DNA of 46,249 nt from Candidatus Micrarchaeota archaeon CG1_02_47_40 (GCA_001871475.1 MNVE01000015.1:1-46249), one strand, 5' to 3'. Positions 4,109-41,734 are shown, numbered from the stretch's first letter. Numbers and translations: made by a program. The notes: generated from the letters alone by a model not told the origin.

Positions 4109-4390
4109 TCATTGCATAGCGCCGTGTTTTTCAAGATAAGAAACGATATCCGTAAATTTCAATTCCCTTGCAATCTTAAGCGGGGGTTTCCCATCCGCAT
4201 CCCTGCAATTCACATCCGCGCCGTTTCGCACAAGCACCCTGACTGAATGGGCATCATTCTCATTGACAGCTCGCATCATGCGTTCATTAAGGACTTTCTT
4301 GGTTCTTTCGTCCCAAATCTTTTTCTCAAATGCCGGAGGAACGCATCCAACTCCTTCTTTCTTCCCTAAATCTCCCTTAACGATTTCCAT
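4109..4390 (-). CDS. Small ankyrin-repeat protein
   Basis: About 93 aa. The C-terminal half holds one clear ankyrin unit (MMRAVNENDAHSVRVLVRNGADVN) followed by a second, weaker unit (RDADGKPPLKIARELKFTDIVSYLEKHGA). Ankyrin repeats mediate protein-protein binding; the partner is unknown. A longer frame extends upstream to 4516, but that would run into divergent dph6. The TATA element at 4421-4432 lies 36 nt before the ATG at 4390, so I chose that start. The N-terminal region (MEIVKGDLGKKEG) has no recognised domain. It is convergent with hicB. Confidence 0.65.
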   Translation of the reverse strand: MEIVKGDLGKKEGVGCVPPAFEKKIWDERTKKVLNERMMRAVNENDAHSVRVLVRNGADVNCRDADGKPPLKIARELKFTDIVSYLEKHGAMQ

Positions 4391-4420
4391 AGAAACACAC
4401 GGATTGTATTTTATAGCGAG

Positions 4421-4432
4421 AATATATTTAAA
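4421..4432. promoter_or_regulatory. Shared TATA element between the ankyrin gene and dph6
   Basis: AATATATTTAAA reads as a TATA box on both strands, about 29 nt before the dph6 ATG and 36 nt before the ankyrin ATG. A second minus-strand candidate, GCTATAAAATAC, lies at 4407-4417 but is too close to the ATG. Confidence 0.55.
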
Positions 4433-4454
4433 CTTCTCCCGCTTCATTTCTCCA

Positions 4455-5099
4455 ATGAAATCCGCAGTTCTCTTCTCCGGCGGCAAGGATTCCACCCTCG
4501 CTGTATTCTTTTCCATCTTTCAGGGATGGGAAACCTCTTTAGTATGCGTCCAATCCCAGGAAGACTCCTATATGTTCCACCACCCGAATACGGAGTGGTG
4601 CAAAGAACAGGCGGAAGTTATGAATTTGCCGATAAGCTACGTAAAGACAAGAAACAAAACAGAGCTTGCTGACCTCAAAGCGCATCTAAAAAAGCTGAAA
4701 ATAGACTGCATAATCACCGGCGCAGTAGCTTCCGAATACCAAAAACAGAGAATTGATTTGCTGGCGCATGAATTGGGCATAAGGAGTTTTTCTCCAATAT
4801 GGCGCAAGAATGAGAAGGTGCTGGAAGAAATGATGCGTTATTTTGAAATCTACATGGTTGCGGTGGCGGCGGAAGGCATAGATGCAAAGTTTCTCTCAAA
4901 AAGGTTTGATGCGGATATGCTTGAGAAACTGAAAAAACTCAAAATACACCCATTCCTGGAAGGAGGGGAAGGGGAAACATTTGTATCAGACGCCCCGTTT
5001 TTTTCCCATCGTCTGAAGATAGGGGGATGGGATTTTCTTCTTGGGAACACCTCCAGCACTGCAAAAATAGCCGGCTTAAGCAAAATTCCAAAATGCTAA
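4455..5099 (+). CDS. dph6: Diphthine--ammonia ligase (Dph6-type PP-loop ATPase)
   Basis: 214-aa member of the PP-loop ATP pyrophosphatase family that catalyses the last step of diphthamide synthesis on elongation factor 2 (ATP-dependent amidation of diphthine). The PP-loop SGGKDS is at residues 8-13; TGAVASEYQKQRI and the family-typical EGGEGETFVSDAPFF (near 170) match archaeal Dph6/MJ0570-like proteins. The start at 4455 places the PP-loop at the usual distance from the N-terminus and about 29 nt behind a TATA box, so translation is probably leaderless. Its end overlaps the convergent membrane operon by 4 nt. Confidence 0.87.
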   Translation: MKSAVLFSGGKDSTLAVFFSIFQGWETSLVCVQSQEDSYMFHHPNTEWCKEQAEVMNLPISYVKTRNKTELADLKAHLKKLKIDCIITGAVASEYQKQRIDLLAHELGIRSFSPIWRKNEKVLEEMMRYFEIYMVAVAAEGIDAKFLSKRFDADMLEKLKKLKIHPFLEGGEGETFVSDAPFFSHRLKIGGWDFLLGNTSSTAKIAGLSKIPKC

Positions 5100-5773
5100 T
5101 TGCCTAATTTCTCCATTCTTTCTATGATATCCTCAAACTCGCTTCCGTAAGCGTCCCCCACCCTGACAGCCACCCGCACCTGCGTATTCACCGGAATCTC
5201 CCTGTTTATTTTTATCGTGTCCTTAGAAGAGGAAACATCAATTCTCGCCGCCTGCGAAATCGGAATGGTCTTGTCAAAGGTGAAAACAGCCGCCTGCCCT
5301 GTGGAAGAGATTGCAGTCACCTGCTTTGGAAGCTGTAAATTAAATGCAAGCGGAACGGAAAAATCAGAAGGGAAAATCTCGCTTATAGGTATCTCCTCGT
5401 CAATTTTTACTGTAGTCTGTATCGGGCTTGAAACAACTATGTCTTTTGCAGATATTGCGCGCAAATCAGCCGCAATCGCGCGCAATTCCGCCTTCTCCGA
5501 AGCGTCCATTCCTCCAGAAGAGAGAAGCACAAAAGCAAGCGCTGCAAGGGAAACGATAAATGCAAGCCCTGCCAATATTTCCGTTCTTCCGCCTTTTACG
5601 GAACCTCCCCCTGCTTTCTCTTCAATCTCCCTTGGGCTTGGCAGGGAGGGGGGCTTTATGAGAGGCGGCGCTTCGCTGGCAACATTCTCCTCCTTCTTTG
5701 CAAACCCTCCCCTAGACTCCTTGTACGCAACCCCGTAAGGCTTGCTTGAGTAATCTCCTTTTTCATCTGCCAT
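5096..5773 (-). CDS. Single-pass membrane protein closing the membrane operon
   Basis: 225-aa protein: a Pro/Lys-rich, probably cytoplasmic N-terminus (1-64), one TM (about 66-86, ILAGLAFIVSLAALAFVLL) and a beta-rich outer domain with repeated I-x-R/D-E-I-P-I/V motifs (IDEEIPISEIF, FDKTIPISQAA, INREIPVNTQV). It is the last gene of the seven-gene minus-strand operon, 20 nt after the sixth polytopic paralog. Topology (short cytoplasmic tail, one TM, outer globular domain) resembles VirB8-like secretion components, but I see no sequence match and make no family claim. A related beta-rich outer domain might act as a scaffold for the polytopic proteins. Confidence 0.75.
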   Translation of the reverse strand: MADEKGDYSSKPYGVAYKESRGGFAKKEENVASEAPPLIKPPSLPSPREIEEKAGGGSVKGGRTEILAGLAFIVSLAALAFVLLSSGGMDASEKAELRAIAADLRAISAKDIVVSSPIQTTVKIDEEIPISEIFPSDFSVPLAFNLQLPKQVTAISSTGQAAVFTFDKTIPISQAARIDVSSSKDTIKINREIPVNTQVRVAVRVGDAYGSEFEDIIERMEKLGN

Positions 5774-5793
5774 TTTCCAATCCCAAACATTTC

Positions 5794-6810
5794 CTAAATT
5801 AACTTTATTAAACCTCTGCCAAGCTCCGCCAAATCTGCGCCGAACATGGAAGAGGTGCTTCTTATGAACGTGAAGGTAATAATAAGCGAAACCAGCGGAT
5901 AAAACATCGCCTGCAGGTAAAGCGCGCTAATCTGCTCTCCTATGCCTGTAACCTGCCCCATCAGCGACTTTCCTCCCATAAGCAACTCCTCCCCTTTGAA
6001 GAAATACCCCACAATATCGTCAGGGCAGAGGGTTTCAAAATTCGGCACCACGCCAACGGCAGTGCAAAGCGCAAGCGCGCTTGAGCCGGTGTTCATTGCA
6101 ACTTCGCCATTTTCCACTACGAAGCTATTTCCCTGCATCGCAGTCATCGCAACAATGGAGAGCGGGAACACGAAGTAGCAGCCTATCGCTATTGAAATCA
6201 TAATTCCCCCTGCCCCGCGCGAAACCGGGAATGCGCGCAGAACAAGCCCGATTGGCAGGAAAACCGTAAGCATAGTAGCTTCAGCGAAAGCCAGCAGTTC
6301 CTTCAGCACGTACTGGAAGAGCAGTATCCAGGTTATCCTGTTTGAAAAGTAAGATGCCAAGCTTATTATCGGGGAAAATATGGTTGCATCTATCGCCTCC
6401 ACTCCCGCAACATCAGTAACAAAGCTCTGCGCCGGCTTTGCAAAAAACATCGCATAATAAAGCCACTTGTAGGCGGAGATTTCGCACTCAATGACAGTGT
6501 CAAGGTAAGCGTCTGCCACCTCAAACGGGCTCACAGCAGAACTCAACATCTGTCCGCTGCCCGCATAAATAACGCCCCCCGTCACATCCTGCATCACCTG
6601 CCAGCCCACCTCCACCATTCCGACTATTGACATGATGAGCAAAAACCCGACCAGCACCTGCGCATACTCCCCCTTTGCCCATTTTTTTACATTTGGCAGG
6701 TTCAGCCCCAGTGAAAGCATGTACAGCACAGTCGTGAAAAACAGGGTTAGCAACAGCGCCACTAGATTGATGCCTATCCATCCCTGGAAAACGTCAGAGA
6801 AAGCAGTCAT
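5794..6810 (-). CDS. Polytopic membrane protein, VirB6/TrbL-like paralog (sixth in operon)
   Basis: 338 aa with about seven predicted membrane spans. It shares two family motifs with its five upstream neighbours: an early KKWAKGEYAQ (42-51) just after TM1 and the central LPIGLVLRAFPVSRGAGG (185-202) followed by a membrane span ending YFVFP (212-216). It ends with the family-like tail LGRGLIKLI after a last TM. Cys-containing outer loops (VIECE, LCPDD) may form disulfides. No signal peptide: TM1 starts at residue 12. Separated from the previous gene by 13 nt with GATGAGGGATG upstream. The VirB6/TrbL comparison rests on topology and a proline/arginine motif between TMs, not on a database match. 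Confidence 0.8.
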   Translation of the reverse strand: MTAFSDVFQGWIGINLVALLLTLFFTTVLYMLSLGLNLPNVKKWAKGEYAQVLVGFLLIMSIVGMVEVGWQVMQDVTGGVIYAGSGQMLSSAVSPFEVADAYLDTVIECEISAYKWLYYAMFFAKPAQSFVTDVAGVEAIDATIFSPIISLASYFSNRITWILLFQYVLKELLAFAEATMLTVFLPIGLVLRAFPVSRGAGGIMISIAIGCYFVFPLSIVAMTAMQGNSFVVENGEVAMNTGSSALALCTAVGVVPNFETLCPDDIVGYFFKGEELLMGGKSLMGQVTGIGEQISALYLQAMFYPLVSLIITFTFIRSTSSMFGADLAELGRGLIKLI

Positions 6811-6823
6811 CTTGCATCCCTCA

Positions 6824-7906
6824 TCAAATCATCTTCGTTATGCTTGAGATATCCATCTCTTCTCCAAGCATCGTGCTTAATTCCTTTATGAACGCTATCA
6901 GGATGGCGAAATTTATAGCGGTAAGAAACACCGTTGAAATGAAAATGAACATCGCACCTGATAAGAAGGGCATTATGTAGTTGCTTGTACTTCCGGCAAT
7001 TTCCTGCCCGCCTGTAGCTTCCCCGCTTGCCCCGCCGCCTGCGATATTGTTTGCGCTGCCTCTCTGTTCATCTAAATTTATCTGTTCATCCGCCTGTGCG
7101 CCCACATCAGCCATTCCTTCATTCACATCATTCATCCAATCTACATTCTGCGGCGTTCTCACCACGTAATCATTGAGCACAAGAAGCGCGGGATACATTA
7201 TAAACATCCCAAGGGAGAAGGCGATAAGAGAGCCGCCGAACATTCTTGTAGGCTCAAATGCGCGCAGCAGGACTCCGAAGGGGAAGAGATATGTAAGTGC
7301 GGCAATTGACATGTACTGGAGAACTTTCATTTCTATCAGCACAAGCAGGAGGGAGAAGGTAAGCGCCTGCGTTGCAATTATGATTACCTGCGTGAAAGGC
7401 GCCAAGCCCGCAAGGGGCTGTATGGTGAATCCTATTCCCACCGGGTCCGCGAAATACTGCGCGTTCATCGTGTGATTCACCGCAAAAAAGAGCATGATGA
7501 GCATCTGGTAAGCCACGTGGTTTAGCGCAAGCAGATACTCAAGGTAATAGTTTGCCGCATCGTAGAAATTTTTTATATCATGCCCATCATACTGCAGATT
7601 TGCATACTGCCCAGGCGTTCTTCCAAACAGCGAATCAAAAACAGCAGGGTTGAAACTGCACATCCAGGACACGAGCACGATTGCAAGCGCGGCTATCGCG
7701 GCGGTTATGAAAAGCTGCCCCACCTCTGCCCTAACCCACACCTCAAGCTGCGAATTCCCGAAAAACTTTGCTGCCATGTAAAAGAGCGCCAGCATCCCGG
7801 CGGCAATGATAAGCGCAATTCCCACTCCTACTTTCCAGTCGCCCCAAAATGCGGTGTACTCGGGAATCGCACTGCACGCGTCAATTACAAATCCGGTCAT
7901 ATACAT
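6824..7906 (-). CDS. Polytopic membrane protein, VirB6/TrbL-like paralog (fifth in operon)
   Basis: About 360 aa. Early motif NSQLEVWVRAEVGQLF (51-66) and central motif FPFGVLLRAFEPTRMFGG (208-225) with MFIMYP ending the next span. After it comes a soluble, low-complexity Gly/Ala/Ser-rich loop (about 243-300), then two C-terminal TMs and the tail EEMDISSITKMI. The frame opens further upstream at a TTG (7924), but the ATG at 7906 overlaps the TGA of a 32-aa ORF as TGATG, a typical coupling junction, so I use it. The long variable loop is characteristic of this set, in which loop length differs most between paralogs. Confidence 0.78.
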   Translation of the reverse strand: MYMTGFVIDACSAIPEYTAFWGDWKVGVGIALIIAAGMLALFYMAAKFFGNSQLEVWVRAEVGQLFITAAIAALAIVLVSWMCSFNPAVFDSLFGRTPGQYANLQYDGHDIKNFYDAANYYLEYLLALNHVAYQMLIMLFFAVNHTMNAQYFADPVGIGFTIQPLAGLAPFTQVIIIATQALTFSLLLVLIEMKVLQYMSIAALTYLFPFGVLLRAFEPTRMFGGSLIAFSLGMFIMYPALLVLNDYVVRTPQNVDWMNDVNEGMADVGAQADEQINLDEQRGSANNIAGGGASGEATGGQEIAGSTSNYIMPFLSGAMFIFISTVFLTAINFAILIAFIKELSTMLGEEMDISSITKMI

Positions 7907-8004
7907 CACATCTGCGAACCGCAAGCCTCGGCTTTGCCGTCAATTTCGAAACCAACCGTACCCTCACATGCGAACCATGCAATACTGAATCTGCCTTCCA
8001 TCAT
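7906..8004 (-). CDS. 32-aa mini-ORF coupling the fourth and fifth paralogs
   Basis: Starts ATGATG at 8004, 5 nt after the fourth paralog's stop, and ends in TGA at 7908-7906, whose last base is the A of the next ATG (TGATG). The peptide begins MMEGRFSIAWFACEG and continues TVGFEIDGKAEACGSQM, with two Cys and no TM. It fills exactly the one unusually long gap (103 nt) in an otherwise tightly packed operon. It could be a genuine microprotein of the complex or a purely translational coupling ORF. Its length is below most gene-finder cutoffs. Confidence 0.5.
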   Translation of the reverse strand: MMEGRFSIAWFACEGTVGFEIDGKAEACGSQM

Positions 8005-8009
8005 ACCAA

Positions 8010-9158
8010 TCACAATATTCTCATCAGCGAGCCTATATTAACATCCGTTCCAAGGTGCTTTGAAATCTCCCTTATCGCGCTGAAAGTCACGAAAAGGTTG
8101 AGAAGGGGCAAAATCATCCCGACAATCACGAGGAAATACGCCACATCCATAAGCATGCTTATCGCCGCGGAGAAAATCAGGTATGGAATGCCCACAACCA
8201 GCCCGAAGTTGCTTCCGAATATGAGCGTTATAAGAAAGAACGGGGTGGCGCCTATCATGCCAAGGAGGTTCTTAACATAATCCCCTCCAAGATGCGTCTT
8301 GAAAAAGCACTGCACTCCCCATCCCATTGTGCAGTCATTTCCATTTGCGTCAACCAGCTCATATTTCTCCGCTATCGCCATTGCGCTGACATTCATCATC
8401 GCAGGATATACGATGTAAAATCCTATTGCAATTGTAATGAGCGCCCCTCCCATCCCTCTTGTAAGGGAGAATGTGCGCAGGAAAATTCCGGCAGGCAGGA
8501 AGATGCTTAGCATGTATTTTTTTATGAAGCAGAGGAGGAAGAGGTGCACGAACCACTCCCCGAAAACAGCGGAAAGCATTACTATTATCATGTTAAGCAG
8601 GTCCATGATGGGACGGAACATGTAAGAGGTTTGGAAAACAATCCCTCCAAGCCCTCCGGGGTTGAGCAGCACGTGCATCGTTCCCATCACGGAAACCGCC
8701 ACGTTGAAAAGCGTAACAACCATCAAATCCGCGCTGACAGTCCCTCCAATTGCGTGCGCATAGGCAATTGCCATCTCAATGGAGCTTTTGCTCCCCTGCG
8801 AATAAACTGATGAAAGCGAATCAACCACCCCGGTGGAAAGCAAAAAGAAAATAACAACAATTGCCGAAACGAACACCTGAAACAGATTTTCCTTTGCCCA
8901 GGCAATCCCTTTCGGGTTTTGCAGTCCGTAAGAGGCAATAAATGCAAGGGACACAAGGAATACCGAAGCGGCAAGCCCCAATCCCGAAAGCACTATCCAG
9001 GAAGAGTTAAGATTTTGCTGGCTGCCTGCAGGTTCGGGTTGGCAATAAGCAGTTTGCCCGTAACTTTTTAACGCATCGAGCCAGACGTTCGGGTCCACTG
9101 CAAAAGCCAGGCTGGCAAACATGCACGCAAACAAAATTGCAATTAATGCATTTTTCAT
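8010..9158 (-). CDS. Polytopic membrane protein, VirB6/TrbL-like paralog (fourth in operon)
   Basis: 382 aa with a cleavable-looking signal peptide (MKNALIAILFACMFASLAFA), then an outer segment with a Cys (YCQPEP) before TM1. Early motif KGIAWAKENLFQVFVSA (83-99); central motif LPAGIFLRTFSLTRGMGG (221-238) followed by IAIGFYIVYP. The C-terminal tail is LGTDVNIGSLMRIL, matching the -VEIxGLxRL- tails of the other paralogs. An outer loop with two Cys (NDCTMGWGVQCFF) may be disulfide-bonded. Only this paralog and the first have a signal peptide. Gap to the previous gene is 9 nt. Confidence 0.8.
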   Translation of the reverse strand: MKNALIAILFACMFASLAFAVDPNVWLDALKSYGQTAYCQPEPAGSQQNLNSSWIVLSGLGLAASVFLVSLAFIASYGLQNPKGIAWAKENLFQVFVSAIVVIFFLLSTGVVDSLSSVYSQGSKSSIEMAIAYAHAIGGTVSADLMVVTLFNVAVSVMGTMHVLLNPGGLGGIVFQTSYMFRPIMDLLNMIIVMLSAVFGEWFVHLFLLCFIKKYMLSIFLPAGIFLRTFSLTRGMGGALITIAIGFYIVYPAMMNVSAMAIAEKYELVDANGNDCTMGWGVQCFFKTHLGGDYVKNLLGMIGATPFFLITLIFGSNFGLVVGIPYLIFSAAISMLMDVAYFLVIVGMILPLLNLFVTFSAIREISKHLGTDVNIGSLMRIL

Positions 9159-9167
9159 ATACTCAAC

Positions 9168-10436
9168 TTATATCAATCTTGTCAAGCCCGCAATCTCAAC
9201 ATCCCCTCCCAAAAGCGGGGAGAGCGTTTTTATCGCCGAAATTGTTGTCATTATCGCAATAAATGGCATGAACACGGAAAAGAGCATGAGTTTTGCTATT
9301 CCTGCAAACACTCCCTCTTCTCCAAGGTACCATCCCCCAATCACAAGCGAATCGTAAAGCGCCTTTGGAATTGATTTTGCAATTGAAACAAGCCCAGTAA
9401 TCATTTCCCCCAAATTGGTGAATATCCAGCCGACAGTATCAAGGATGTTTTGCGGCTCTCCTTCCTGCACTCCAAATATGTCCCACTGGCTTCTAACCTG
9501 TCCTATATAATCGTCCAGCGCCTCTCCCTCTAAGTCATAAACACTGCTGTTGGGGGGTGCAATCGTGCCTCCATCCGGATTCAAAACATCCTTCATTTCC
9601 CCTTTTTCCATCCCCTCTTCTTGCGGCAGCTCAAGATTATATATAACCGTTTTGTACTGCCCGTTGAAAAGCAATACACTATCAGTATGCCCTGTGGTGG
9701 CGTAAAGCAGGTAGCCGGCAAGGGCGTACATAAAGGGGAAAACAAAATACAACCCCACCCCCATCGCAAGGAGAAGCCCGCCAAGCTTTCTTGTCAGGAA
9801 GAAATTCCGCAGTAAAAACCCGCCTATTAAGAAAATGGGAAACACGGACTGCTGTATGATATCAAGGAGGTTTTGCTGGAACCTTGAAACAATCATTATT
9901 TTCACAAGCAAATCAACTGCAAAATTAATCCCCTCCGTCAGAGTGCTTATTCCCGAAAAAGGCGCCATTCCCAAATCCCCCCAGGGCGCGATTGTGAAGC
10001 GCAGTCCTATCCTTGCCTCGGAAATGAAGAGGAAAAGCGAGTTCATCCAAATCAGCTTTGAGGACATGTCCTCGGCAGTGTCAAACACCACATCAAGGTG
10101 GTTTTTTGCAAGCGCGAAATGGCAAGGAGTAAGATTGGGATTTTGGGGCGCGTTTGGGCCTATTGGCGAGCACAAGACAGCAGACTGCGGGTCAAGGCTG
10201 GCAATCGCGCCCACCCAGTAATCCGTTCCCGTTGCGGCAAACACCACGAGCAGAAGTATTATTGCGGAGTAGAAAATCTGCGAAAGCTCAGCTTTAGCAT
10301 ACGCCTCCAGCCGCTCATCCGAGAGGAATTTGCCTATCATATATAGAAGCGCAACAAGAGAGATGGATGCGAATAGCGCCAAGGCAAGCAGGTAGCCGTA
10401 TTGCGAAAGCAGGTATGCGGCAGTCAACAAAGCCAT
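9168..10436 (-). CDS. Polytopic membrane protein, VirB6/TrbL-like paralog (third in operon)
   Basis: 422 aa if begun at ATG 10436; a GTG at 10460, overlapping the previous TAG, would add eight residues (MKKRCLLK). The ATG start aligns best with the second paralog's N-terminus. Early motif ERLEAYAKAELSQIFYSA (41-58), central motif FLIGGFLLRNFFLTRKLGG (202-220), then LYFVFP, and the tail GGDVEIAGLTRLI. A large soluble loop at 255-330 (acidic, Pro/Asn-rich) separates the central TM bundle from the C-terminal TMs. Two Cys in the first outer loop (VLCSP, TPCHF). Confidence 0.8.
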   Translation of the reverse strand: MALLTAAYLLSQYGYLLALALFASISLVALLYMIGKFLSDERLEAYAKAELSQIFYSAIILLLVVFAATGTDYWVGAIASLDPQSAVLCSPIGPNAPQNPNLTPCHFALAKNHLDVVFDTAEDMSSKLIWMNSLFLFISEARIGLRFTIAPWGDLGMAPFSGISTLTEGINFAVDLLVKIMIVSRFQQNLLDIIQQSVFPIFLIGGFLLRNFFLTRKLGGLLLAMGVGLYFVFPFMYALAGYLLYATTGHTDSVLLFNGQYKTVIYNLELPQEEGMEKGEMKDVLNPDGGTIAPPNSSVYDLEGEALDDYIGQVRSQWDIFGVQEGEPQNILDTVGWIFTNLGEMITGLVSIAKSIPKALYDSLVIGGWYLGEEGVFAGIAKLMLFSVFMPFIAIMTTISAIKTLSPLLGGDVEIAGLTRLI

Positions 10437-10459
10437 TTTCAATAAACACCTTTTCTTCA

Positions 10460-11395
10460 CTAAAATTTCTGCCCCAGAAACTTAATCATGCTTTTTATGA
10501 ACGTGTTCGTTATAATCATGGAAAGCCCGGGCAGGAATATCGCCTGCATTATTATCACTGAAAGGTTTGCAAAGGGATGCAGCATCCAGCTTAAATCAAA
10601 AGAATTGCCAAACACCCTCTTATAAAAACTCGAATTGGGGTCGTATGCAGGCTCAATCCCTCCAAGAGGGTCGCCTGCGCCAGGCGCATCAGGAACTCCG
10701 AGAAAATCAATTCCCGTGTCTTTTGCGTCAATATATTTCATTATGTCATAATGCATTACGTATGTTAGGGGGAATACGAAGTAAAATCCAAATGCGGTTG
10801 AAATTAAGAAAACGCCGGCATCGCGCGTTGCGGGAAATATGCGCAGGATGATGCCTGCGGGCAGAACGAAAGCAATCATCGTTGAGTGTATTATGTGCAA
10901 ACCGAACTGCTGCGCCATTATGGATGCGCTGAAAGGCGTTATTACCATAAGCACGAATTCAAAAACGGATTCAAAGAGGCTAAACTGCGGGAAAAGCGCA
11001 AAGCGAACTCCCCATGCCGTGCCTGCGCCATAGCTGTGCGATATTCCCGAGAGAAGCTGCGAGCCAATCACAATCCCCTCCATCTGCATTAGGGTGGGCA
11101 TGAGAAGGTTCACCACCAGCTTGTCAAGGTATTCCTGCGCGACATCAAAATAATCCTTTCCGCCGAGCATGCTTTTTGAAACATCTTCCATCATGTTCAC
11201 AATCAGGAGCGCCATTATGAGAATGAGCGCGGAGAAGAAAATTTGGTGCGTCTCAACCCGCGCATACGCCTCCCATTCAGGCCTTTTCACCAATTGCGCA
11301 ATCATGTAAATTGCCGCAACCACGAATACCATTAACGCCATGCTCACGGCAAAAATTCCCATCTCCGCGCTCTGCAGTATATCTACAAAAGGCAT
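10460..11395 (-). CDS. Polytopic membrane protein, VirB6/TrbL-like paralog (second in operon)
   Basis: 311 aa, the shortest of the six. Early motif PEWEAYARVETHQIFFSA (39-56); central motif LPAGIILRIFPATRDAGV (178-195), then GFYFVFP. It lacks the charged -VEIxGLxKL- tail, ending FLGQKF. The short loop at 230-262 is Asp/Pro/Gly-rich. It starts 3 nt after the first paralog's stop, so translation is tightly coupled. It has no signal peptide; TM1 begins near residue 12. Confidence 0.8.
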   Translation of the reverse strand: MPFVDILQSAEMGIFAVSMALMVFVVAAIYMIAQLVKRPEWEAYARVETHQIFFSALILIMALLIVNMMEDVSKSMLGGKDYFDVAQEYLDKLVVNLLMPTLMQMEGIVIGSQLLSGISHSYGAGTAWGVRFALFPQFSLFESVFEFVLMVITPFSASIMAQQFGLHIIHSTMIAFVLPAGIILRIFPATRDAGVFLISTAFGFYFVFPLTYVMHYDIMKYIDAKDTGIDFLGVPDAPGAGDPLGGIEPAYDPNSSFYKRVFGNSFDLSWMLHPFANLSVIIMQAIFLPGLSMIITNTFIKSMIKFLGQKF

Positions 11396-11398
11396 ATT

Positions 11399-12667
11399 CT
11401 ACACCAGCTTTGAAAGCCCGAAAATTTCCACTTCCCCGCCAAGCGCCGCAGCCAGGCTCCGGTAGGCGGTTATGGTGATTATTATCTCAAGCACCAGCCC
11501 CGCCACCACAAATGTTAGATATTGCGTCATCACTCCTATTGATTTTAGCGCGCCAAAGTAGAACACTATGGGGAGCTTTCTCATGTCCGTTAAAGATTCC
11601 ATCATCGTGAAAACCATCGTTATGACCTTTCCAATCATTCCGAGTGCAATCCATAGCACGTCAAGCGTGCCGGCAATAAACAGCCATGCAGAGCAGAAAA
11701 GGTTCTTGAGAGCTCCCTGCACCTGTCCGCCGCAATCCACAAACCCTCCGAATGTGTAATCCCTTCCCGTGCGCGCCACTGCCTCCTCTCCCGCATTCTG
11801 CCCGCTTGTCTGCATCTCCTCTAAATACGTCTGCGTGTCCGTTACATCACTCTGCGCAAGTTCAACAATACTCATATAATCCCCGTAATCCGTCACCTGC
11901 GTGTTATACCATACCTCCTTCATCACCATCACGGATGCTGGAAAAACAAAATACGCTACAAGTGCAAACACCACAAGGCTCGTTCCAAGCCTTCTTGTGA
12001 GGAAGAAGCACCTTAAGAGTATCCCAATGGGAAGAAAAAGCTTCAGCATCGTTTTTTCAAAAAACTCAAGCACTAACAGCTGAACGGCAGTTATGCCTAT
12101 CGCCACCCCCATGAAATCCGTTATCAATATGTTCGCCTCGCTGACCATCTGCGTGCCTATCGCCGGAGCAAGGGAAAGCGAAAGCCGGTTCACCGGCGTC
12201 ATGGGGAGGAAGAGAGAGATGCGCATCGTTGAGAAAAACCCTATGAGCATTTCGTACATATTCAGGCTGACATAATTGTGTATTCCCTTTGTTTTCACAA
12301 TATTTAAAAACAGCTTCGGCTGGGAGTAAAAATCCTCATTTCCCGCCAGGGTTTGGCTTATGGCGGCAAAAAGCACGAGAAGCACGGCAACCAGCGCCAC
12401 CATCAGTGCGCTTCCCCCAAGCTCGTAAAGCTCCCCCTTCACCCATGCCTTTAATTGGGGAGAGGAGAAGAACTCGCCAAACATCCACGCAATGCCTGCA
12501 ATGAACGCGCCTATTGCAAGCGCGAGGAGAGTGGGGGCGAAAAATTCACCGCCTGCAAAATCAGATGCAAAACTTTCCCAAGCCAGCTGGCTGCCTGATG
12601 TTCCCTGCGCTGACGCAAGGGAAAAGAAAAAGAAAAATAGCGCAAATGCAAGAAAAGCTTTTCCCAT
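11399..12667 (-). CDS. Polytopic membrane protein, VirB6/TrbL-like paralog (first in operon)
   Basis: 422 aa beginning with a signal peptide (MGKAFLAFALFFFFFSLASA). Early motif PQLKAWVKGELYELGGSA (70-87); central motif FLPIGILLRCFFLTRRLG (211-228) followed by YFVFP (239-243); tail GGEVEIFGLSKLV. The outer loop 250-325 carries a Cys-Gly pair (VDCGGQ) and is polar. The frame extends 16 codons further upstream, but the ATG at 12667 is preceded by a TATA box at the right distance (about 28 nt), so the message is probably leaderless and the signal peptide is then correctly N-terminal. This is the promoter-proximal gene of the operon. Confidence 0.82.
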   Translation of the reverse strand: MGKAFLAFALFFFFFSLASAQGTSGSQLAWESFASDFAGGEFFAPTLLALAIGAFIAGIAWMFGEFFSSPQLKAWVKGELYELGGSALMVALVAVLLVLFAAISQTLAGNEDFYSQPKLFLNIVKTKGIHNYVSLNMYEMLIGFFSTMRISLFLPMTPVNRLSLSLAPAIGTQMVSEANILITDFMGVAIGITAVQLLVLEFFEKTMLKLFLPIGILLRCFFLTRRLGTSLVVFALVAYFVFPASVMVMKEVWYNTQVTDYGDYMSIVELAQSDVTDTQTYLEEMQTSGQNAGEEAVARTGRDYTFGGFVDCGGQVQGALKNLFCSAWLFIAGTLDVLWIALGMIGKVITMVFTMMESLTDMRKLPIVFYFGALKSIGVMTQYLTFVVAGLVLEIIITITAYRSLAAALGGEVEIFGLSKLV

Positions 12668-12690
12668 ACGGAAAATAGTTTCAGTTTGGT

Positions 12691-12700
12691 TATTTAAAAA
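12691..12700 (-). promoter_or_regulatory. TATA box of the seven-gene membrane operon
   Basis: TTTTTAAATA on the minus strand lies about 28 nt before the ATG at 12667. It is the only convincing promoter for the run of genes down to 5096, whose gaps are mostly under 21 nt. Confidence 0.6.
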
Positions 12701-12725
12701 CCCCCCTTTTTGCACATCCTTAACC

Positions 12726-15526: not shown

Positions 15527-15557
15527 CTCAATTTACATTGAGTAGGAGTGCCTTTTT
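15527..15557 (+). terminator. Weak hairpin/T-tract after leuS
   Basis: CTCAAT (15527-15532) and ATTGAG (15537-15542) pair around TTAC, with a T5 run at 15553-15557. The right arm repeats the last codons of leuS (ACATTGAGT), so it may be a small duplication. Confidence 0.4.
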
Positions 15558-15601
15558 CGTGCCACAAACTTAAAATACTCAAACTCTACAAAGAAGTGCA
15601 T

Positions 15602-18600
15602 ATGGGCGGCTTGAAAACAGCGTTAACTATCTTTGCGCTATTTCTCATCTTTTCAGCTGTCATTTTTTCAGCGCAGGCGGAGGGGAAGGATTCAAGCAGG
15701 CTCCAGCTCTACACGCAGGGAACTACCATTCACGCAAAGCTCACAAAACTGCACCTTGAAACCTACTTTGATTTTAACAACCCTGAAGGGGCGCTTGCGG
15801 AACAGCAGGGCGGCTCGCCTATCCCACAGGGTGTTGATTACTCGGTGATTGCACCGGATACCTCCCCATTGGAAGGGAAGCAAATCAAATTCTACGTGCT
15901 TGAGAGCAGTGGCTTTGAGGAATTGCAATGCAGCGGCCCTGCCGCCGCCATTACCGGAGCGCAAGGAACACCAGAATGGGGAATGGCAAGCTGCACCGAC
16001 CCTGAAATAGAAAATTGGCAGGAATGCAAATCAGTGAAAGCGGTTTTTGAAGGGGAAGCGCAACTTGAAGGTTCGGAATCGCAAACAATGGTTTGCGGCT
16101 CAAAAAACAATTCCCTTAATGCATTTGGCACCTCCCTTTCAGACTCCCTGCAGAACGTGCGCACAAACCCAATACAAGGGGCAATATGCGTTTCCGCATT
16201 TCTCATAATGGGGCTTCTCATCTCCTCAATGTATTACTCGGGCAAAAACCCCCTTGCCCTCTTTGACATAACCGTTCCGCGCCTGCCAAGGGCAAAAAAA
16301 ACAAGGATGGCAAAGATAGTGGTTCGTGCAAACCTGCTGGCAAAGCAGGAGCTGGACAGGCGCGTGGTGGCTACGCTTGGCAAATTCTCAAGAACAACAG
16401 GGGGTGCGCTTGGGGCAGGCAGTGCGCTTGATGCTGCAAGGGCGCAAAAATACAGGGAGATAATGGAAAACCGAAAGCTTGACCCGTCGGTGCGCGCTGC
16501 GGCGCTTCTTGCGCTTTTCGCAGGCAAAACCCTTTCTTATGTGGATTCCATACTCTCCGGCGGGAAAAAATACGTGCAGGAAATTGCCTCGCGCGGGGAG
16601 ATTGAAGGCTTGAAATTCGCAGGCAATGACGACAGCAGAAAAAGGCTCACCGGACTTTTTGACTCGCTCAAAAAAACAGTCGGTCTATCATTAATACAAT
16701 CGGACCAGATGAAGGCGATTGATGAAGCATATGGATACGACAACATACTCTCAAAAAAGGTCTTCCGCCCGTTTTACAATGCGGCTTTTGCGGTGCACCT
16801 GGCAGTCAAGAGAGTTCCCATACTTGGAAAATATCTTCTCGCCCCCTTAATTACAAGCCCGCTTGCAAACCTCCTTGTCCTTCCGGTTGAGGTTACCGCG
16901 CAGATGAAAACCGCAGGCAAAATGCAGGCAAACTATGCAAAGGGTGCATTTGTTGAAACCGTGAATTTTGCAGGCAGAAGGCTTGGGGTGAAGGCGAAAT
17001 CCACGGATAAGGGATTTTGGGGCTGGGTTAAGAAGAACTCCCTGGAAGAGAGGAAGATAAGCTATTTTGAGGATTCAAAGGAAAAGCTTGAGAAGGTGCA
17101 AAAAGACCTTTCACTCACTGCAAAGCAGGACATACTTGCATACGTGATGACAAAAATTGCGCAAAACGAAGCGCTTGCAAAGAAGCTCTCCGATCCGGCA
17201 TTCTCGCAGACGCTTGCAAGATACATACGGGATGAGAAATACCATGAGGCGCTCCAGAGCCTTCTTCAGGTTGAAAGGGGGCGCGTGATTGATGCGCAAA
17301 CTGCAAGAAAGCTTGAAGCGCTCATGAGCAGCATTTGCGCGGAAGATAAAAGATATGCGGGTGCAGACAGGGATGTAAGAGGCAGAGTGACTGATTTGTC
17401 TGCCGCAAGGGATTACATAGCAAACGTCTTTGGGCACATAGACTCCTTTGACTCGCAAAATAAGGAAATACTCCAGATAACAAAACCTCTTTTTGACCGC
17501 AGCAATTTACAGGATAAAAATATGGCAAGAATGAGGGAGTATTTAGTTGCGATGGTATACATGCGGGATGTAAAAAGATGGGAAGAAGAAAAAGGAAGGG
17601 CGCCCACTTACACGGACGCAATAAAAACCGCAAGAGACTACGTTCTGAATGATTTCAATGTTGGCGCCTACAAGTGGGCTGCCCTTCGTGAAATGTATGA
17701 ACTGCGCGGGCAGGGCAGGGGATACGGCACAGATATTTCAAGCGAGACAAGAAGACTGCTTGCGGACAGGATGGAAGGAAGGATAACCGACATGCACAAC
17801 TCCATGTTCCGTGATTTCCGCCAGAGCGTGAATGAGCAGTTTGCAATACTCAAATTCTACATGGACCATCTTCTTCCCCTAATAAACCCATCCGGCAATC
17901 TAAGCAATTTTGCGGCTTATGAGGCGCTCCTGAAAAAGGGAATCACCTGGGGCATGGCTACAAACTTAAAATGGAATTCCGATGACGCCAAAGCAATCAC
18001 CGAAGGGAAAGTCATACGAGGGTGGATTTCAACTTCCGACAGGACGTACAGGCCCCTCTTCGCGGAAGGGCAGTATCAGAAATTCATAAAGGAAGACGGG
18101 CTCAACTTCTTCAAATACGTCCGCGATGCGCAGGGAAAAATCATGAAGGATGTTCAGGGACAGCCAATGAGAACGCCCATAGACGCTTTCGGCGCTTCAG
18201 TTGCCGACAAGCTGGTGCCGGTCTACAACAAGGACGGGAAGCACTGGCTTGAGTCCGGGTACAGCACCCCCACGAAAGCGGTTTTCAAGAAAATGCAAAA
18301 CCCCTTCATAAACATAATGATGGCGGGCATGCTGCCAACAGCAGAGAAGCTTGAAACCGCGTTTGCAATGCAGATGCTGCAGAAGAAGGCATGGAGCGAG
18401 TTCCAGCGGGATTACAAAAAAGGGAATTTTTTTGGAGAGTCAACTCTGCTTAAGGGAATGCGGGACGCAATTGGCGACAGAAAACTCTCAAGCGGCGGAG
18501 ATATTGAGAAATATGGAAAAAGCGCCCTCTTAAGCGAGGAGCAGAGAATGAAGGAATCGTTTGAGTGGCAAAAGCAGCAGTCTGAAAACTCAACCGATGC

Positions 18601-20173
18601 GGTAGGAAGGGCAGTGCACCATGTGCTTAAAGAGATGTCCGGCAAGATGCCCGGCGAGGAAAGAATGTTTGTGAAATTTGAGATAAAAAACTCCCTTGAA
18701 GGCATGAACCTGGCCTCAAAGCAGAAAAGCGAGGCGCTCACAAGGCTCGAGCCCCTTCTAAACCAGTTTACGGATTTGCAGAAAACAAGAAGAAGCGAGC
18801 TGCACGATACCATAAAAGAGCTTCGCGATGACGCAGTATACGGGCGGGCATTTGCACAAACTGCAAAGCTCTCAAGGATGTATGATATGATATTCGCAAT
18901 CAACGAATCCTCCTTCATGAGAGACCCGCGCGCGGCGAGCTCCTCCTTCGGCATCCAGCAGGCGATGGATGTGGGATACCACACAGGGCAGTCCATATAC
19001 GAGCCAAGGCATTATGTCATGAGCCATGATTTGATGCCGGGAGAAGGGGCGACGCGCTTTTTCCTTGCGCCTGCCGAGCGGCTTGCGCGCTGGATTTCCT
19101 ACTTTACGCGCGGGCCCATGGCGGTGTTCACCGGCTACCCCTCTGTTTATGATTTTGGGCAGATGAGCCAAAGAAAGCACGCGGAAGGGGTAAAATCCCT
19201 TTTCAAATTCTGGGAGAACTTTGACCGCTTCTCAAACACCGTTCTCCCGCGTGTGCAATCCCCCTGGAGATATGATGAGGCGGAAGGCTGGACAAGGTTT
19301 GATATAAGCGGAAAAGGCGCGGTAATGCGCATGCCAATAACCTACGAGCAGGAGTGGGGGATGGGAGGAGCAGAAGGGAAAGCGGAAATAGGAAGAAGGA
19401 CGCTGCAGAATATGCTAAACGTGTCCGAAAATTACCTAAGTGCCCATTCTGCAGAACAGGCAAGGAGCATAAATGAAACATACAAGGCGGCAACCGGCCT
19501 TGATTCGGACGCAATCTCACAGAAGGAAACCCACTGGTATGACCCTGTTTTCCAGAAGGGAAAGAACGTGAATCTATTGCTTACCGGCTACAAAATGGCA
19601 ACAGGCCCTGAAAGCGAGCGAACCCCTGAAAAAGAACATCCCTATTACATAAACCAGCAAAAGCCCTTCGCGCCGGGCATGATGTGGCTTGATTATGAAC
19701 AAGGACAGCACTTAAACGTGCGGCTCTCAAATGCGATAATACACAATGCGGATTACAGCTACCTTGCGGATCTTTACAATGTGCGGAAGGACGCGCAGTC
19801 AAACCTCTGGCGCCGCGACAGGATGCCTACCGACATCGGGCTTGGCGTTGACCCGATTTCAGGGCAGGCAGTCAGCCTTGAGGACATAAGGAAGCAGGAG
19901 TTTGAGATGTATGAATTCGGATTGAAAACTCCATTCTTCATAGCGCGGCACCTAAAAACACGCAGTGCAGAAGACGCTTTCAAAAAAGCAGAAGAGCAGG
20001 GAGCCATCGGAGACGCGCTTATGCAGACAGCAAGGCAGACTTATTATTATAGCTTTAACATACAGACTACAATGCTGTTCCCAGGGCTTTTCCTTGCCAG
20101 CATGTTTGACAAATCAAGGATGTTTCGGCCTTCGGAATGGCGCTGGCTGCACAAGAGGGCGCAAAACCCATAA
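15602..20173 (+). CDS. Giant signal-peptide/TM protein of the putative envelope machine
   Basis: 1,523 aa with no recognised family. Order: signal peptide (1-26, ending FSAQA), an outer domain with four Cys (110, 131, 142, 165), one TM at about 191-213 (IQGAICVSAFLIMGLLISSMYY), then roughly 1,300 mostly helical, charged residues predicted to be cytoplasmic, with a possible hydrophobic hairpin (KYLLAPLITSPLANLLVLPVEV) around 415-440 and hydrophobic patches near the end (MLFPGLFLASMF). The helical part is rich in Lys/Arg/Glu and shows many aromatic residues toward the C-terminus. A preceding TATA-like CTTAAAATACTC and the GAAGTG before the ATG support this start over an 18-codon longer frame. 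The lipoprotein gene follows after 12 nt. Shared signal-peptide style and proximity suggest it works with the polytopic operon; this is inference. Confidence 0.8.
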   Translation: MGGLKTALTIFALFLIFSAVIFSAQAEGKDSSRLQLYTQGTTIHAKLTKLHLETYFDFNNPEGALAEQQGGSPIPQGVDYSVIAPDTSPLEGKQIKFYVLESSGFEELQCSGPAAAITGAQGTPEWGMASCTDPEIENWQECKSVKAVFEGEAQLEGSESQTMVCGSKNNSLNAFGTSLSDSLQNVRTNPIQGAICVSAFLIMGLLISSMYYSGKNPLALFDITVPRLPRAKKTRMAKIVVRANLLAKQELDRRVVATLGKFSRTTGGALGAGSALDAARAQKYREIMENRKLDPSVRAAALLALFAGKTLSYVDSILSGGKKYVQEIASRGEIEGLKFAGNDDSRKRLTGLFDSLKKTVGLSLIQSDQMKAIDEAYGYDNILSKKVFRPFYNAAFAVHLAVKRVPILGKYLLAPLITSPLANLLVLPVEVTAQMKTAGKMQANYAKGAFVETVNFAGRRLGVKAKSTDKGFWGWVKKNSLEERKISYFEDSKEKLEKVQKDLSLTAKQDILAYVMTKIAQNEALAKKLSDPAFSQTLARYIRDEKYHEALQSLLQVERGRVIDAQTARKLEALMSSICAEDKRYAGADRDVRGRVTDLSAARDYIANVFGHIDSFDSQNKEILQITKPLFDRSNLQDKNMARMREYLVAMVYMRDVKRWEEEKGRAPTYTDAIKTARDYVLNDFNVGAYKWAALREMYELRGQGRGYGTDISSETRRLLADRMEGRITDMHNSMFRDFRQSVNEQFAILKFYMDHLLPLINPSGNLSNFAAYEALLKKGITWGMATNLKWNSDDAKAITEGKVIRGWISTSDRTYRPLFAEGQYQKFIKEDGLNFFKYVRDAQGKIMKDVQGQPMRTPIDAFGASVADKLVPVYNKDGKHWLESGYSTPTKAVFKKMQNPFINIMMAGMLPTAEKLETAFAMQMLQKKAWSEFQRDYKKGNFFGESTLLKGMRDAIGDRKLSSGGDIEKYGKSALLSEEQRMKESFEWQKQQSENSTDAVGRAVHHVLKEMSGKMPGEERMFVKFEIKNSLEGMNLASKQKSEALTRLEPLLNQFTDLQKTRRSELHDTIKELRDDAVYGRAFAQTAKLSRMYDMIFAINESSFMRDPRAASSSFGIQQAMDVGYHTGQSIYEPRHYVMSHDLMPGEGATRFFLAPAERLARWISYFTRGPMAVFTGYPSVYDFGQMSQRKHAEGVKSLFKFWENFDRFSNTVLPRVQSPWRYDEAEGWTRFDISGKGAVMRMPITYEQEWGMGGAEGKAEIGRRTLQNMLNVSENYLSAHSAEQARSINETYKAATGLDSDAISQKETHWYDPVFQKGKNVNLLLTGYKMATGPESERTPEKEHPYYINQQKPFAPGMMWLDYEQGQHLNVRLSNAIIHNADYSYLADLYNVRKDAQSNLWRRDRMPTDIGLGVDPISGQAVSLEDIRKQEFEMYEFGLKTPFFIARHLKTRSAEDAFKKAEEQGAIGDALMQTARQTYYYSFNIQTTMLFPGLFLASMFDKSRMFRPSEWRWLHKRAQNP

Positions 20174-20185
20174 AAAAGGATTTTT

Positions 20186-22372
20186 ATGAAACACACGGAA
20201 TTTTTTGCACTTTCCTTCATTCTCCTGCTTCTTGCAGGATGTGCCCAAAATGCAGGCGGAGCCACAACTTCAAGCATAAATCACATGTTTGACACAAGCG
20301 ATGTCACCTGCGAGCCGCCAGATGAAACCCCCTGCCAATGCTACGTGTGCGAACAGCACCCTTCCCTATTCTCCTGGATGTATATAAAAAGCTCCCTGCT
20401 TGGGGAGAAATGCTCTTTTGAAGCGTGCAGCAATGAAAGTTATTCCGAGCTTTTGGAGGCTTATCACGCCAATCCCTTCACCACCCTCCTCTCCTCGCCA
20501 AAAATACTCCGCTTTTTCTCCTTTGGCATGGGGCCTGATTTTCATTCATTTGATGAAGCTAACAAATACTGCGGCTATTCAATGGACTTGCCTGTGCAGT
20601 GGCTTTCCTTTTCTGCCAGCTCGCCAGAAGCGCCGCCTACTCCTTCTTACATACAAACCGCCTGCTTTCTTGAGAGGACAATCATCCCCCTGTATATAAT
20701 TTACAATGAAGGAGGGACGATAAACATACTCAAAACAGAGCAGATTGCAAGCTCTCTTAGCAACAACATCGCGCCAATTTACATTACAACACAGCCGGAT
20801 TACGCCGCTTACGATAGCACTACTGCAAATTACGTGCAAGGGCAGATACGTGCGATAAAAGACGTCTGTCCAAACTGCCTTACAGTTCTCATGCTTCCCT
20901 ACATTACTGATGACGCGCAAAAATACTGGAAGGAAACACTTGCAAATGTTATAGGCACTCCGCAGGAAATAGCGCAGGGGCTTGACCCATACGGAATAAA
21001 AAATGACATTGATTTCATTGGAATGGGAATAATAATAACGCCTGAAAGTGTTGCAGAACACGACTGCAATCCGCAATTCAGAATATACGAGGCGGCAAAT
21101 TTCACCTACTCCACAATACTAAAGCAATACCAAAAGCCCTCCATCTGGGCGTATTTTGGCGTTGAGGAGGGTTCGGCTGATGGCTGTGCGATTGATGGGG
21201 ATGATGCTGCCAGCTCCTACGATTACCTTTTCCAGAATGCGCAGATGCTTGCATACTCCGGAATAGTGGGGGTTGCGCATGTTGGTTTCTCGGATGATAA
21301 GCTGCCTTCCGTAGTGCCATTAGACTCGCAGTTTGGACTGGTTTCATCCATTACCCCCCCCGTACAAAACAACCCCCAGCTTAATGCCTGGTCTGACAAC
21401 TGCCATTACTACTATTCCCTCTATGACAGGATTGCAAGCGTCTACTCTCCAAAGGGAAGGGCAACCCATTGCGCCTTCACATTCAACAACCGCATGAAAG
21501 CCGGTATTGTGCACGATGCAACTAAAATGCAAGAGCCGGTGCTTCCGGATACTGAAAACAAATACTCCTGCGGAGCGCAAATCTCTTCAGCGCCTCCTCC
21601 CTTGCGCTACTATTTCAGCGTGTCCCTGCCTTCAATTTCCAATTCCGATACAGCCTGCACCGATTACCCGGAGCTTAGCGCATACGCAGGAGATTATTCA
21701 GTTGACCCTCTTTTCGTGCGGGCAATTTCCTATGTTGAAACCGATGGGCTTGATTTGAATGCCAAAAATTACGTTTTATGCGAAAGTCAGGTCGGAGGAA
21801 CATTCTCCGGTGCCTGCTTGAGTTCTACCATTATTAACGGCGCCTTAAATCCACCACCTCCGCTTAACGCCTGCCCAAGCGGCGATGGAGGGCTTGAATG
21901 CGGTTTGATGGGAAGGATTGAAACATACCACGAGGGCGACGGAGAGTGCGTTCCCACAGACAGATATTACAATCCCTTCAACTCCACAAACGCCTGCCTT
22001 GGCGCAAGGGAATTGAGTATAGATTTTGCTGACACGGACCTTCAGGATGCCATCAACAGCAATTCACAGATGCTTGCCGACCCACTCACCGGAGAGTTGA
22101 ATCAGGAATGGATGAACGCCTACCTTGCAGCGTATGCCTACGACATGGGCAGTCCAAGCGAGGCGGTTGATTTGGTAAATGCTTTCACAACGCAATACAA
22201 CCTGCCCATAAGCGGCTCCTGCTCCGGAAACCACGAATTCATAAATTACGCGAACAATTGCGCCAAAAACGCCTACCCTTCAATGCCAAACGGCAATTCA
22301 ATGCCAAACGGCAACACCTACCCAAGCGAAGTGATCGCCGCCTACGTCGCACTTTCAAACGCCTGCTACTAG
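20186..22372 (+). CDS. Lipoprotein with glycosidase-like and lysozyme-like domains
   Basis: 728-aa secreted protein. The signal peptide ends in a lipobox (LLLLAGC, Cys19). Residues about 145-400 look like an alpha/beta barrel of the glycosidase type, with alternating beta strands (TIIPLYIIYNE, IAPIYITTQP, CLTVLMLPYI, IDFIGMGIII, KPSIWAYFGVEE, GIVGVAHVGF) and acidic residues at strand ends. From about 490 the pattern SVDPLFVRAISYVETDG matches the start of lytic-transglycosylase/SLT folds, with E518 in the catalytic-Glu position; GLMGR and AYLAAYAYDMG resemble the later SLT motifs. Many Cys suggest disulfides. The GGATTTTT before ATG may be a ribosome site. Coupled to the giant protein gene (12-nt gap). 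Domain calls are pattern-based; substrate is unknown. Confidence 0.7.
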   Translation: MKHTEFFALSFILLLLAGCAQNAGGATTSSINHMFDTSDVTCEPPDETPCQCYVCEQHPSLFSWMYIKSSLLGEKCSFEACSNESYSELLEAYHANPFTTLLSSPKILRFFSFGMGPDFHSFDEANKYCGYSMDLPVQWLSFSASSPEAPPTPSYIQTACFLERTIIPLYIIYNEGGTINILKTEQIASSLSNNIAPIYITTQPDYAAYDSTTANYVQGQIRAIKDVCPNCLTVLMLPYITDDAQKYWKETLANVIGTPQEIAQGLDPYGIKNDIDFIGMGIIITPESVAEHDCNPQFRIYEAANFTYSTILKQYQKPSIWAYFGVEEGSADGCAIDGDDAASSYDYLFQNAQMLAYSGIVGVAHVGFSDDKLPSVVPLDSQFGLVSSITPPVQNNPQLNAWSDNCHYYYSLYDRIASVYSPKGRATHCAFTFNNRMKAGIVHDATKMQEPVLPDTENKYSCGAQISSAPPPLRYYFSVSLPSISNSDTACTDYPELSAYAGDYSVDPLFVRAISYVETDGLDLNAKNYVLCESQVGGTFSGACLSSTIINGALNPPPPLNACPSGDGGLECGLMGRIETYHEGDGECVPTDRYYNPFNSTNACLGARELSIDFADTDLQDAINSNSQMLADPLTGELNQEWMNAYLAAYAYDMGSPSEAVDLVNAFTTQYNLPISGSCSGNHEFINYANNCAKNAYPSMPNGNSMPNGNTYPSEVIAAYVALSNACY

Positions 22373-28264: not shown

Positions 28265-28293
28265 AATCAACGCAATCTTCAGAAGGGATGTGA

Positions 28294-30336: not shown

Positions 30337-30880
30337 ATTATTTCAGAAAGCTGAACTTGAATATATTACGCCCTTTCTAAAATTGTGGCTCGCTTTTAAT
30401 TGTTGGTATAAAAAAGATTCAGAAGCAGATACTCCTCCTATTAAAACAGATGCTCAAGCAATAACAAAATACAAAGTAAGTGGAAAAGTTAAATTGTATT
30501 TTCTAAGATTTTTCGAGGACACTTCAACAGATGGTAAGAATTTTAATGAAGCGATAAGATTGTTTGTTTTAAATGCTGAAGAAAATTATGAAATTAACGA
30601 CAAAGATAACAACAGAGTAAAATACACAATATTAATTGAAAATCCCGCTTCAAGAACGATAACAACGGACAGTCTTATTAAAGTTGGTGAAGGAAGTAAA
30701 AAATATTTTATTAGGAGTGACCAAAAGGAAGATTTTTTTTCAGAAACATTACAAATTATTTATCATGTAAGATGTTGTTTAGTTCATGGAGATTTTGATA
30801 TTGATGATCAATATTTTATTCAACTTGTAGAAAGTTCATATAAAATCATGTATCCAATTATGGAAAGGGTGTTAGAATAA
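30320..30880 (+). CDS. HEPN-like protein inside the restriction-modification operon
   Basis: 186 aa, overlapping the methyltransferase gene by 17 nt and the specificity gene by 1 nt (TAATG). The N-terminal helix FLKLWLAFNCWY resembles Apea-like HEPN families, and the C-terminal helix has R151-CCLV-H156, the R-x4-H motif of HEPN ribonucleases. Known HEPN proteins in defence loci cleave RNA when the primary system fails (e.g. PrrC-type anticodon nucleases located beside type I systems). Whether this one is an RNase, or only a binding module, cannot be told from sequence. No ATPase domain is attached. Confidence 0.68.
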   Translation: MGKADKLFQKAELEYITPFLKLWLAFNCWYKKDSEADTPPIKTDAQAITKYKVSGKVKLYFLRFFEDTSTDGKNFNEAIRLFVLNAEENYEINDKDNNRVKYTILIENPASRTITTDSLIKVGEGSKKYFIRSDQKEDFFSETLQIIYHVRCCLVHGDFDIDDQYFIQLVESSYKIMYPIMERVLE

Positions 30881-39325: not shown

Positions 39326-39463
39326 ATGAACTGTCCAGGTCTTTGCCACATCTGCGGGCAATTAGCCGATTTCACCTGTTGCTGGTGCCTTTCCCCCACC
39401 TGCAGAAACTGCCTTGAAGGGGATGTCTGCAGGGGATGCTCAAAGGGAAGGAAATTGGGCTAA
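39326..39463 (+). CDS. 45-aa Cys-rich zinc-binding protein
   Basis: ATG 39326, TAA 39461-39463. Nine Cys among 45 residues (MNCPGLCHICGQLADF, CCWCLSPTCRNC, VCRGC), spaced as two treble CxxC-type knuckles, resembling B-box/HIT-type zinc fingers. It follows the glycosylase by 23 nt on the same strand and may be co-transcribed. Its last 4 nt overlap the convergent AbiEii-like gene. Too short for usual gene-length cutoffs. Confidence 0.65.
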   Translation: MNCPGLCHICGQLADFTCCWCLSPTCRNCLEGDVCRGCSKGRKLG

Positions 39464-41699: not shown

Positions 41700-41722
41700 G
41701 GGTTGTTTTAGCCCTCTTATCT

Positions 41723-41734
41723 AATTTAAATATT
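41723..41734. promoter_or_regulatory. Shared TATA element between MNT and subtilase genes
   Basis: AATTTAAATATT is nearly palindromic, about 21 nt before the subtilase ATG and 30 nt before the MNT ATG. Confidence 0.55.

Follow-up and report, generated by a model that had tools for sequence, protein, structure and literature searches.

Organization of a six-gene array in a Micrarchaeota genome

The stretch of DNA analysed here, referred to as the window, comprises 46,249 nt of Candidatus Micrarchaeota archaeon CG1_02_47_40 (GCA_001871475.1, MNVE01000015.1:1-46249) and corresponds to contig C5 of a 1.15-Mb genome estimated to be 93% complete. The organism belongs to the Ca. Micrarchaeota, within the DPANN archaea, and related loci bear Candidatus Micrarchaeota names; its lifestyle is probably host-dependent. 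Between positions 5794 and 12715, the minus strand carries six adjacent genes (p1 to p6, hereafter operon 1) which encode polytopic membrane proteins of a single family and which are likely to be six dedicated subunits occupying the VirB6/CedA position of a Ced/type IV secretion-like apparatus. The genes of operon 1 are listed below, together with a seventh gene that closes the operon.

11399..12715, minus strand: p1, first transcribed, putative VirB6/CedA-like subunit of 438 amino acids (aa), or 422 aa from the ATG at 12667; signal peptide; tail GGEVEIFGLSKLV
10460..11395, minus strand: p2, putative VirB6/CedA-like subunit of 311 aa; without acidic tail
9168..10460, minus strand: p3, putative VirB6/CedA-like subunit of 430 aa, or 422 aa from an internal ATG; tail GGDVEIAGLTRLI
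8010..9158, minus strand: p4, putative VirB6/CedA-like subunit of 382 aa; signal peptide
6824..7924, minus strand: p5, putative VirB6/CedA-like subunit of 366 aa; AlphaFold2 (AF2) model with a predicted local distance difference test score (pLDDT) of 79.6
5794..6810, minus strand: p6, putative VirB6/CedA-like subunit of 338 aa; tail GADLAELGRGLIKLI; AF2 model with pLDDT 81.6; weak NCBIfam CedE match
5096..5773, minus strand: single-transmembrane protein of 225 aa closing the operon, not a paralog; cytosolic Pro-rich N-terminus and outside C-terminal domain (by inspection)

In an all-versus-all BLASTP comparison, the products of p1 to p6 are interconnected, mostly with E values of 1e-7 to 1e-15, and are also connected to seven further copies in the genome. 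A family profile built from other genomes only detects each of the six (E 2e-65 to 3e-77); with the other polytopic proteins of the window (SecD, SecF, SdpI, a P-type ATPase and a 209-aa membrane protein) the same profile gave E>=0.09. A profile restricted to position 5 aligns with one restricted to position 6 over 315 columns (E 4e-35). Because of the BLASTP links and of the scores obtained with the outside-genome profile, the paralogy of the six genes, which had been proposed in a first-pass annotation of the window, is established far beyond chance. A Pfam search of the six proteins returned no family above cut-off.

Several of the signatures first attributed to these proteins proved looser than described. 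The central motif LPxGhhLRxFxxTRxxGG is indeed shared, but TR is replaced by SR in p6 and the final GG by GV or GT in two proteins; the early W/Y-A-K/R-x-E motif reads WAKEN in p4, YFVFP becomes FIMYP or YIVYP in two proteins, and the VEIxGL-type tail ascribed to most members is missing from p2. The operon start had also been set at 5096, a range that takes in the non-paralogous 225-aa gene. Hydropathy and signal peptides suggest that the N-terminus of the six proteins is outside, followed by about five transmembrane helices, with the conserved P/R motif and the tails inside. These C-terminal tails are position-specific, with LGGDVEIAGLTRLI in p3, GEEIDVTNLTRLI in p5 and GADLAEIGRGLIKLI in p6. 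As for the 225-aa protein, its assignment as VirB8 was tried and failed, with just two homologs found in total, one of which adjoins a VirB4-N gene (see below) in genome G011.

Copies, conservation and duplication of the array

The first-pass annotation described six members, but the genome contains 13 copies: the six of operon 1, six in a second operon (operon 2) that is co-linear with operon 1 and located on contig C7 (L009), and one standalone copy on contig C11. Two of the operon 2 proteins reach 751 and 871 aa owing to large Cys-rich outside segments. The family is present in 58/59 genomes of a sample of relatives and in 220/245 genomes of a phylum sample, a conservation that supports the initial interpretation, with up to 19-20 matches per genome of about 1 Mb. 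In the 20-kb loci that were read in relatives from the same taxonomic order, complete arrays always consist of six genes and are of two types. A search for related loci using 11 paralogs revealed no conserved stretch. The same arrays were also seen in L143 (G250), a bin labelled Marsarchaeota that is probably mislabelled or the product of a transfer.

In a maximum-likelihood tree of 113 family proteins, positions 1, 2, 3, 5 and 6 each form a clade (Shimodaira-Hasegawa-like approximate likelihood-ratio test, SH-aLRT, 86-99) and each of them divides into an operon 1 and an operon 2 clade (86-99). Position 4 displays the same two operon clades, which are not united because the standalone copy is placed beside it. 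Genes from other orders found in L145 and L153 fall into the same position groups and, in L148, L149 and L152, positions 3, 5 and 6 join these groups while positions 1, 2 and 4 occur as long branches, some of the supports being low. Since the tree sorts by position and then by operon, the ordered six-gene set predates a single duplication of the whole operon, which occurred in the ancestor of the order of this micrarchaeon and gave rise to operons 1 and 2. The position clades, which extend across orders, and the position-specific tails point to six fixed, non-interchangeable subunit positions and so support the initial view of six ancient paralogs with distinct places.

Linkage to VirB4-like and VirB2-like genes

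Two VirB4/CedB-like ATPases, of the kind that the first-pass annotation proposed to look for elsewhere in the genome, were found, each preceded by a gene encoding a 270-309-aa protein with two transmembrane segments. By our reading this product, which has no significant family match, resembles VirB3 plus the N-domain of VirB4 (hereafter VirB4-N-like). VirB3/VirB4-N-like genes and a VirB4/CedB-like ATPase are located on contig C9 of the window genome. The top NCBIfam family of the ATPases is CedB (6.9e-20 and 1.5e-27, below the equivalog cut-off), followed by CedD and VirB4/TraC; Pfam-type matches were obtained with AAA_10 (1.5e-13) and P-loop_TraG (1.3e-9), top plasmid matches include TraC, and VirB4 (4ag5) is a further match. 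Small genes encoding VirB2/TrbC-like proteins with two transmembrane segments match PF04956 (1.8e-5 and 3.1e-5) and PF18895 (2.8e-5), just under the gathering scores, and four pilin-like genes occur in tandem on contig C15.

The link to type IV secretion that had been suggested for the array is supported by other families, in which VirB3/4-like and VirB4-like genes are joined to it. In G099, G065 and G063, two VirB4-N-like genes come immediately after the six-gene array, and a VirB4-like ATPase gene after them. The same order occurs in G086 (L146), with four array genes called in the list of open reading frames (ORFs), while in G073 the array runs into two VirB4-N-like genes and the ATPase is not called; in G089 (L147) the order is compatible and the ORF calls are messy. 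The standalone copy of the window genome stands behind a VirB2-like gene. In two lineages far apart from each other, the standalone member has a VirB2-like gene on one side and VirB3/4-like genes on the other, and the order VirB2-VirB6-VirB4N-VirB4 was found in L097, L101, L098 and L099. The VirB4-N-like upstream gene is present in 39/39 relatives, mostly in two copies. Among 40 genomes chosen for contrast, presence and absence match perfectly, VirB4-N being found in 21/21 genomes with the family and in 0/19 without it (Fisher p 8e-12, a value that ignores shared ancestry, the losses falling in seven families).

Two further ATPase genes were noted. One encodes a 645-aa protein with weak CedD and TraD matches, possibly a coupling protein (L048:8913-10850, contig C4 of G000). 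The other is a 4596-aa open frame near 89 kb of contig C15 of G000 (L014), the sequenced C-terminal part of which comprises outside domains, a transmembrane segment and a HerA/VirB4-like ATPase domain; it resembles nanohaloarchaeal giant proteins and is unlinked to the six-gene operons.

Relationship to VirB6, TrbL and CedA

The type IV secretion assignment derives from genomic context, namely the sharing of operons and of genomes with VirB4-like genes, and a number of results weigh against it. PF04610 (TrbL/VirB6) matches none of 58 family members, nor the locus in a genome scan; HHalign comparison with a proteobacterial VirB6 alignment built for the purpose gave E 0.35 and 0.33, no better than a SecF control (0.34); and Foldseek searches of the PDB with the AF2 models of p6 and p5 gave no match at E<=0.001. 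On the supporting side, when the 58 members were scanned against 18,950 NCBIfam models, the best-represented families were CedE (3 members, 2.5e-4) and CedA (2 members, 1.1e-4), but these weak matches are below the curated cut-offs, as are the TrbC matches of the pilin-like genes, the size and place of which are right. Also against the assignment, the VirB4 genes of the window genome sit on contigs other than that of operon 1 and, VirB6 of R388 being pentameric (PMC9259494), analogy does not by itself imply a ring of six.

Searching PDB sequences with the family profile gave no match, the HHalign comparison with a pNOB8 polytopic protein was not significant, and the best match in the viral library BFVD, a TrbL (E 0.023, TM 0.26), was not significant either; Sulfolobus plasmid homologs were too few for an archaeal VirB6 profile to be built. 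A P-x10-TR parallel between VirB6 and the family, noted by hand, was not recovered by HHalign and is given no weight here. The likeness to VirB6/TrbL, first read from topology and motif, is thus not sustained as homology: direct homology between the two families was not shown by these sequence and fold comparisons.

Large proteins and lipoproteins associated with the arrays

Only leuS separates operon 1 from two genes located on the opposite strand:

15548..20173, plus strand: 1541-aa protein; signal peptide, outside part of ~150 aa, one further transmembrane segment and ~1300 aa predicted inside
20186..22372, plus strand: 728-aa Cys-rich lipoprotein, of a family with a C-terminal SLT (VirB1-like) domain

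In most of the relatives read, a homolog of the 1541-aa protein is directly divergent from operon 1 and, in several relatives, operon 2 is followed by a lipoprotein of 1150-1640 aa and by a paralog of this large protein. The lipoprotein family occurs in 23/29 relatives and its Glu518 is nearly invariant. Pfam detects the SLT domain in 4/10 homologs (best 2.2e-5), the copy of the window being under threshold, whereas this domain escaped detection when the lipoprotein profile was run against the PDB. SLT corresponds to the VirB1-type activity of type IV secretion systems (T4SSs). Archaea are not known to have murein, and a lytic-transglycosylase-like domain in a lipoprotein is therefore unexpected.

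Other features of the window

Two tandem ftsZ genes (229-2379) and a small ankyrin-repeat-like ORF recognized by eye (4109-4516, minus strand) were also noted. An AT-rich island (28001-32232; GC content 0.30-0.34 versus about 0.47) carries a type I specificity-like gene together with an HSDR_N/N6-methylase gene fusion and is probably an acquired restriction system. An AbiEii-like toxin gene and its partner are found at 39460-40709, and look-alike pairs were seen by eye near operon 2 (L009:11543-12934) and near the standalone copy (L010:14975-16209). Finally, a 1528-aa subtilase with an Ig-like domain (41615-46201) is probably a surface protease.

Proposed apparatus and alternative explanations

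From these data we infer a channel role for p1 to p6, their assembly with one another and a stoichiometry of six subunits. Together, the six proteins would span the cell membrane as a hetero-oligomeric channel. Its inner side would be the docking place of the VirB4/CedB-like ATPase and of the VirB3/VirB4-N-like proteins, and VirB2-like pilins would project from the channel outside; operons 1 and 2 would each be served by a lipoprotein of their own and by a separate membrane-anchored protein of very large size. R388 has a homopentameric VirB6 stalk and a hexameric inner-membrane complex (PMC9259494), and six distinct subunits would permit a symmetry unlike that of this pentamer. More tentatively, two or three Ced/T4SS-like machines may operate in parallel, each with an obligate, fixed-order channel of six different subunits that possibly matches a six-fold VirB4, and the operon 2 machine, with its Cys-rich outside domains, may have turned into a device for contact with the host.

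Two cargoes would be compatible with such an apparatus. Import or exchange of chromosomal DNA as in the Ced system of Sulfolobales, with DNA of neighbours or of the host taken up for repair or nucleotides, is plausible if short of probable: the best matches of the ATPases are CedB and CedD and those of the six-gene family CedA/CedE, VirB2-like pilins are present, and the genes are chromosomal, phylum-wide and without a PF03432 relaxase, but the matches are below curated cut-offs, and Ced has neither an SLT lipoprotein nor inside domains of ~1300 aa. Host-directed protein secretion or attachment, in which the channels would deliver effectors to an archaeal host or take material from it and the Cys-rich loops of operon 2 would bind the host, is possible yet rather doubtful. 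It would fit two specialised operons, one of which has very large outside loops, surface lipoproteins carrying an SLT domain, the absence of PF03432 and a 4596-aa frame like the nanohaloarchaeal giants proposed to subjugate hosts together with a T4SS (PMC10266531); no effector was identified, however, and the closest characterised archaeal relatives, Ced and Ted, transport DNA.

A transporter complex unrelated to T4SSs, the genes of which simply accompany VirB4-like genes, would agree with the lack of a detectable VirB6/TrbL sequence or fold match, but is improbable in view of the place of the standalone copy, flanked in two distant lineages by a VirB2-like gene and VirB3/4-like genes, the strict co-occurrence with VirB4-N in the contrast set and the CedA/CedE matches. 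Integrated conjugative elements or their remnants, with ordinary VirB6 expansions, would have the VirB2/VirB6/VirB4 core in common with the present loci but are very unlikely given the vertical pattern by family and order, the housekeeping neighbours (LeuS, Dph6 and FtsZ), the absence of PF03432, the one relaxase family searched, and the lack of any match to the standalone member among 72,556 plasmids.

Comparison with known systems

As a Ced/T4SS-like apparatus, the machine would be of a known type, and the initial impression of an undescribed kind of system does not hold: its closest counterparts are the archaeal Ced and Ted systems, and Rickettsiales possess VirB6 paralogs in tandem (PMC7648143). 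Ced of Sulfolobales (CedA/CedE, CedB/CedD, CedA1) likewise is chromosomal and combines a CedB/CedD-like ATPase with a VirB2-like pilin and a polytopic CedA-like channel protein, the last two having putative counterparts here. It transfers DNA (PMC11868833, PMC9905601), and its channel-protein paralog CedE exists and matters, Saccharolobus having two CedA-like proteins (PMC11868833). The Micrarchaeota, in contrast, have six putative ones in order per operon (12 plus 1 in the window genome) and a VirB4 split into N and ATPase genes, to which lipoproteins of an SLT family and membrane-anchored proteins of very large size are added. Ted of Thermoproteales would share the VirB2/VirB6/VirB4-only archaeal core (PMC9905601) but is reported with a single VirB6-like TedA.

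In the T4SS of Rickettsiales, Anaplasma among them, four tandem virB6 paralogs, some with large surface-exposed extensions, form one operon with VirB3/VirB4 (PMC7648143). Compared by description, that system is bacterial, with four copies and C-terminal extensions, whereas the Micrarchaeota have six copies in a phylum-conserved order with loop inserts. TrwI (VirB6) of R388 shares the inferred machine position and, as noted by hand, a proline 11 residues before TR, but it is a homopentamer (PMC9259494) and its profile comparison with the micrarchaeal family is not significant. The giant proteins of Nanohaloarchaeota, also DPANN, tie a VirB4/TraG-like ATPase to a proposed host-directed secretion (PMC10266531); the text of that paper does not mention VirB6, and the micrarchaeal giant is not linked to the six-gene operons.

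What is new is the number of subunits, their fixed order, the phylum-wide conservation and the duplication of the whole array. No description of the six-gene array was found in the open-access papers searched, subscription papers and preprints being outside the scope of the search. T4SS channels are usually built from copies of one protein and, if the present interpretation is true, a channel made of six dedicated paralogs would represent an unusual T4SS architecture. For the old question of how material passes between DPANN archaea and the cells that host them, a VirB4-driven machine found almost throughout one DPANN phylum offers a concrete candidate.

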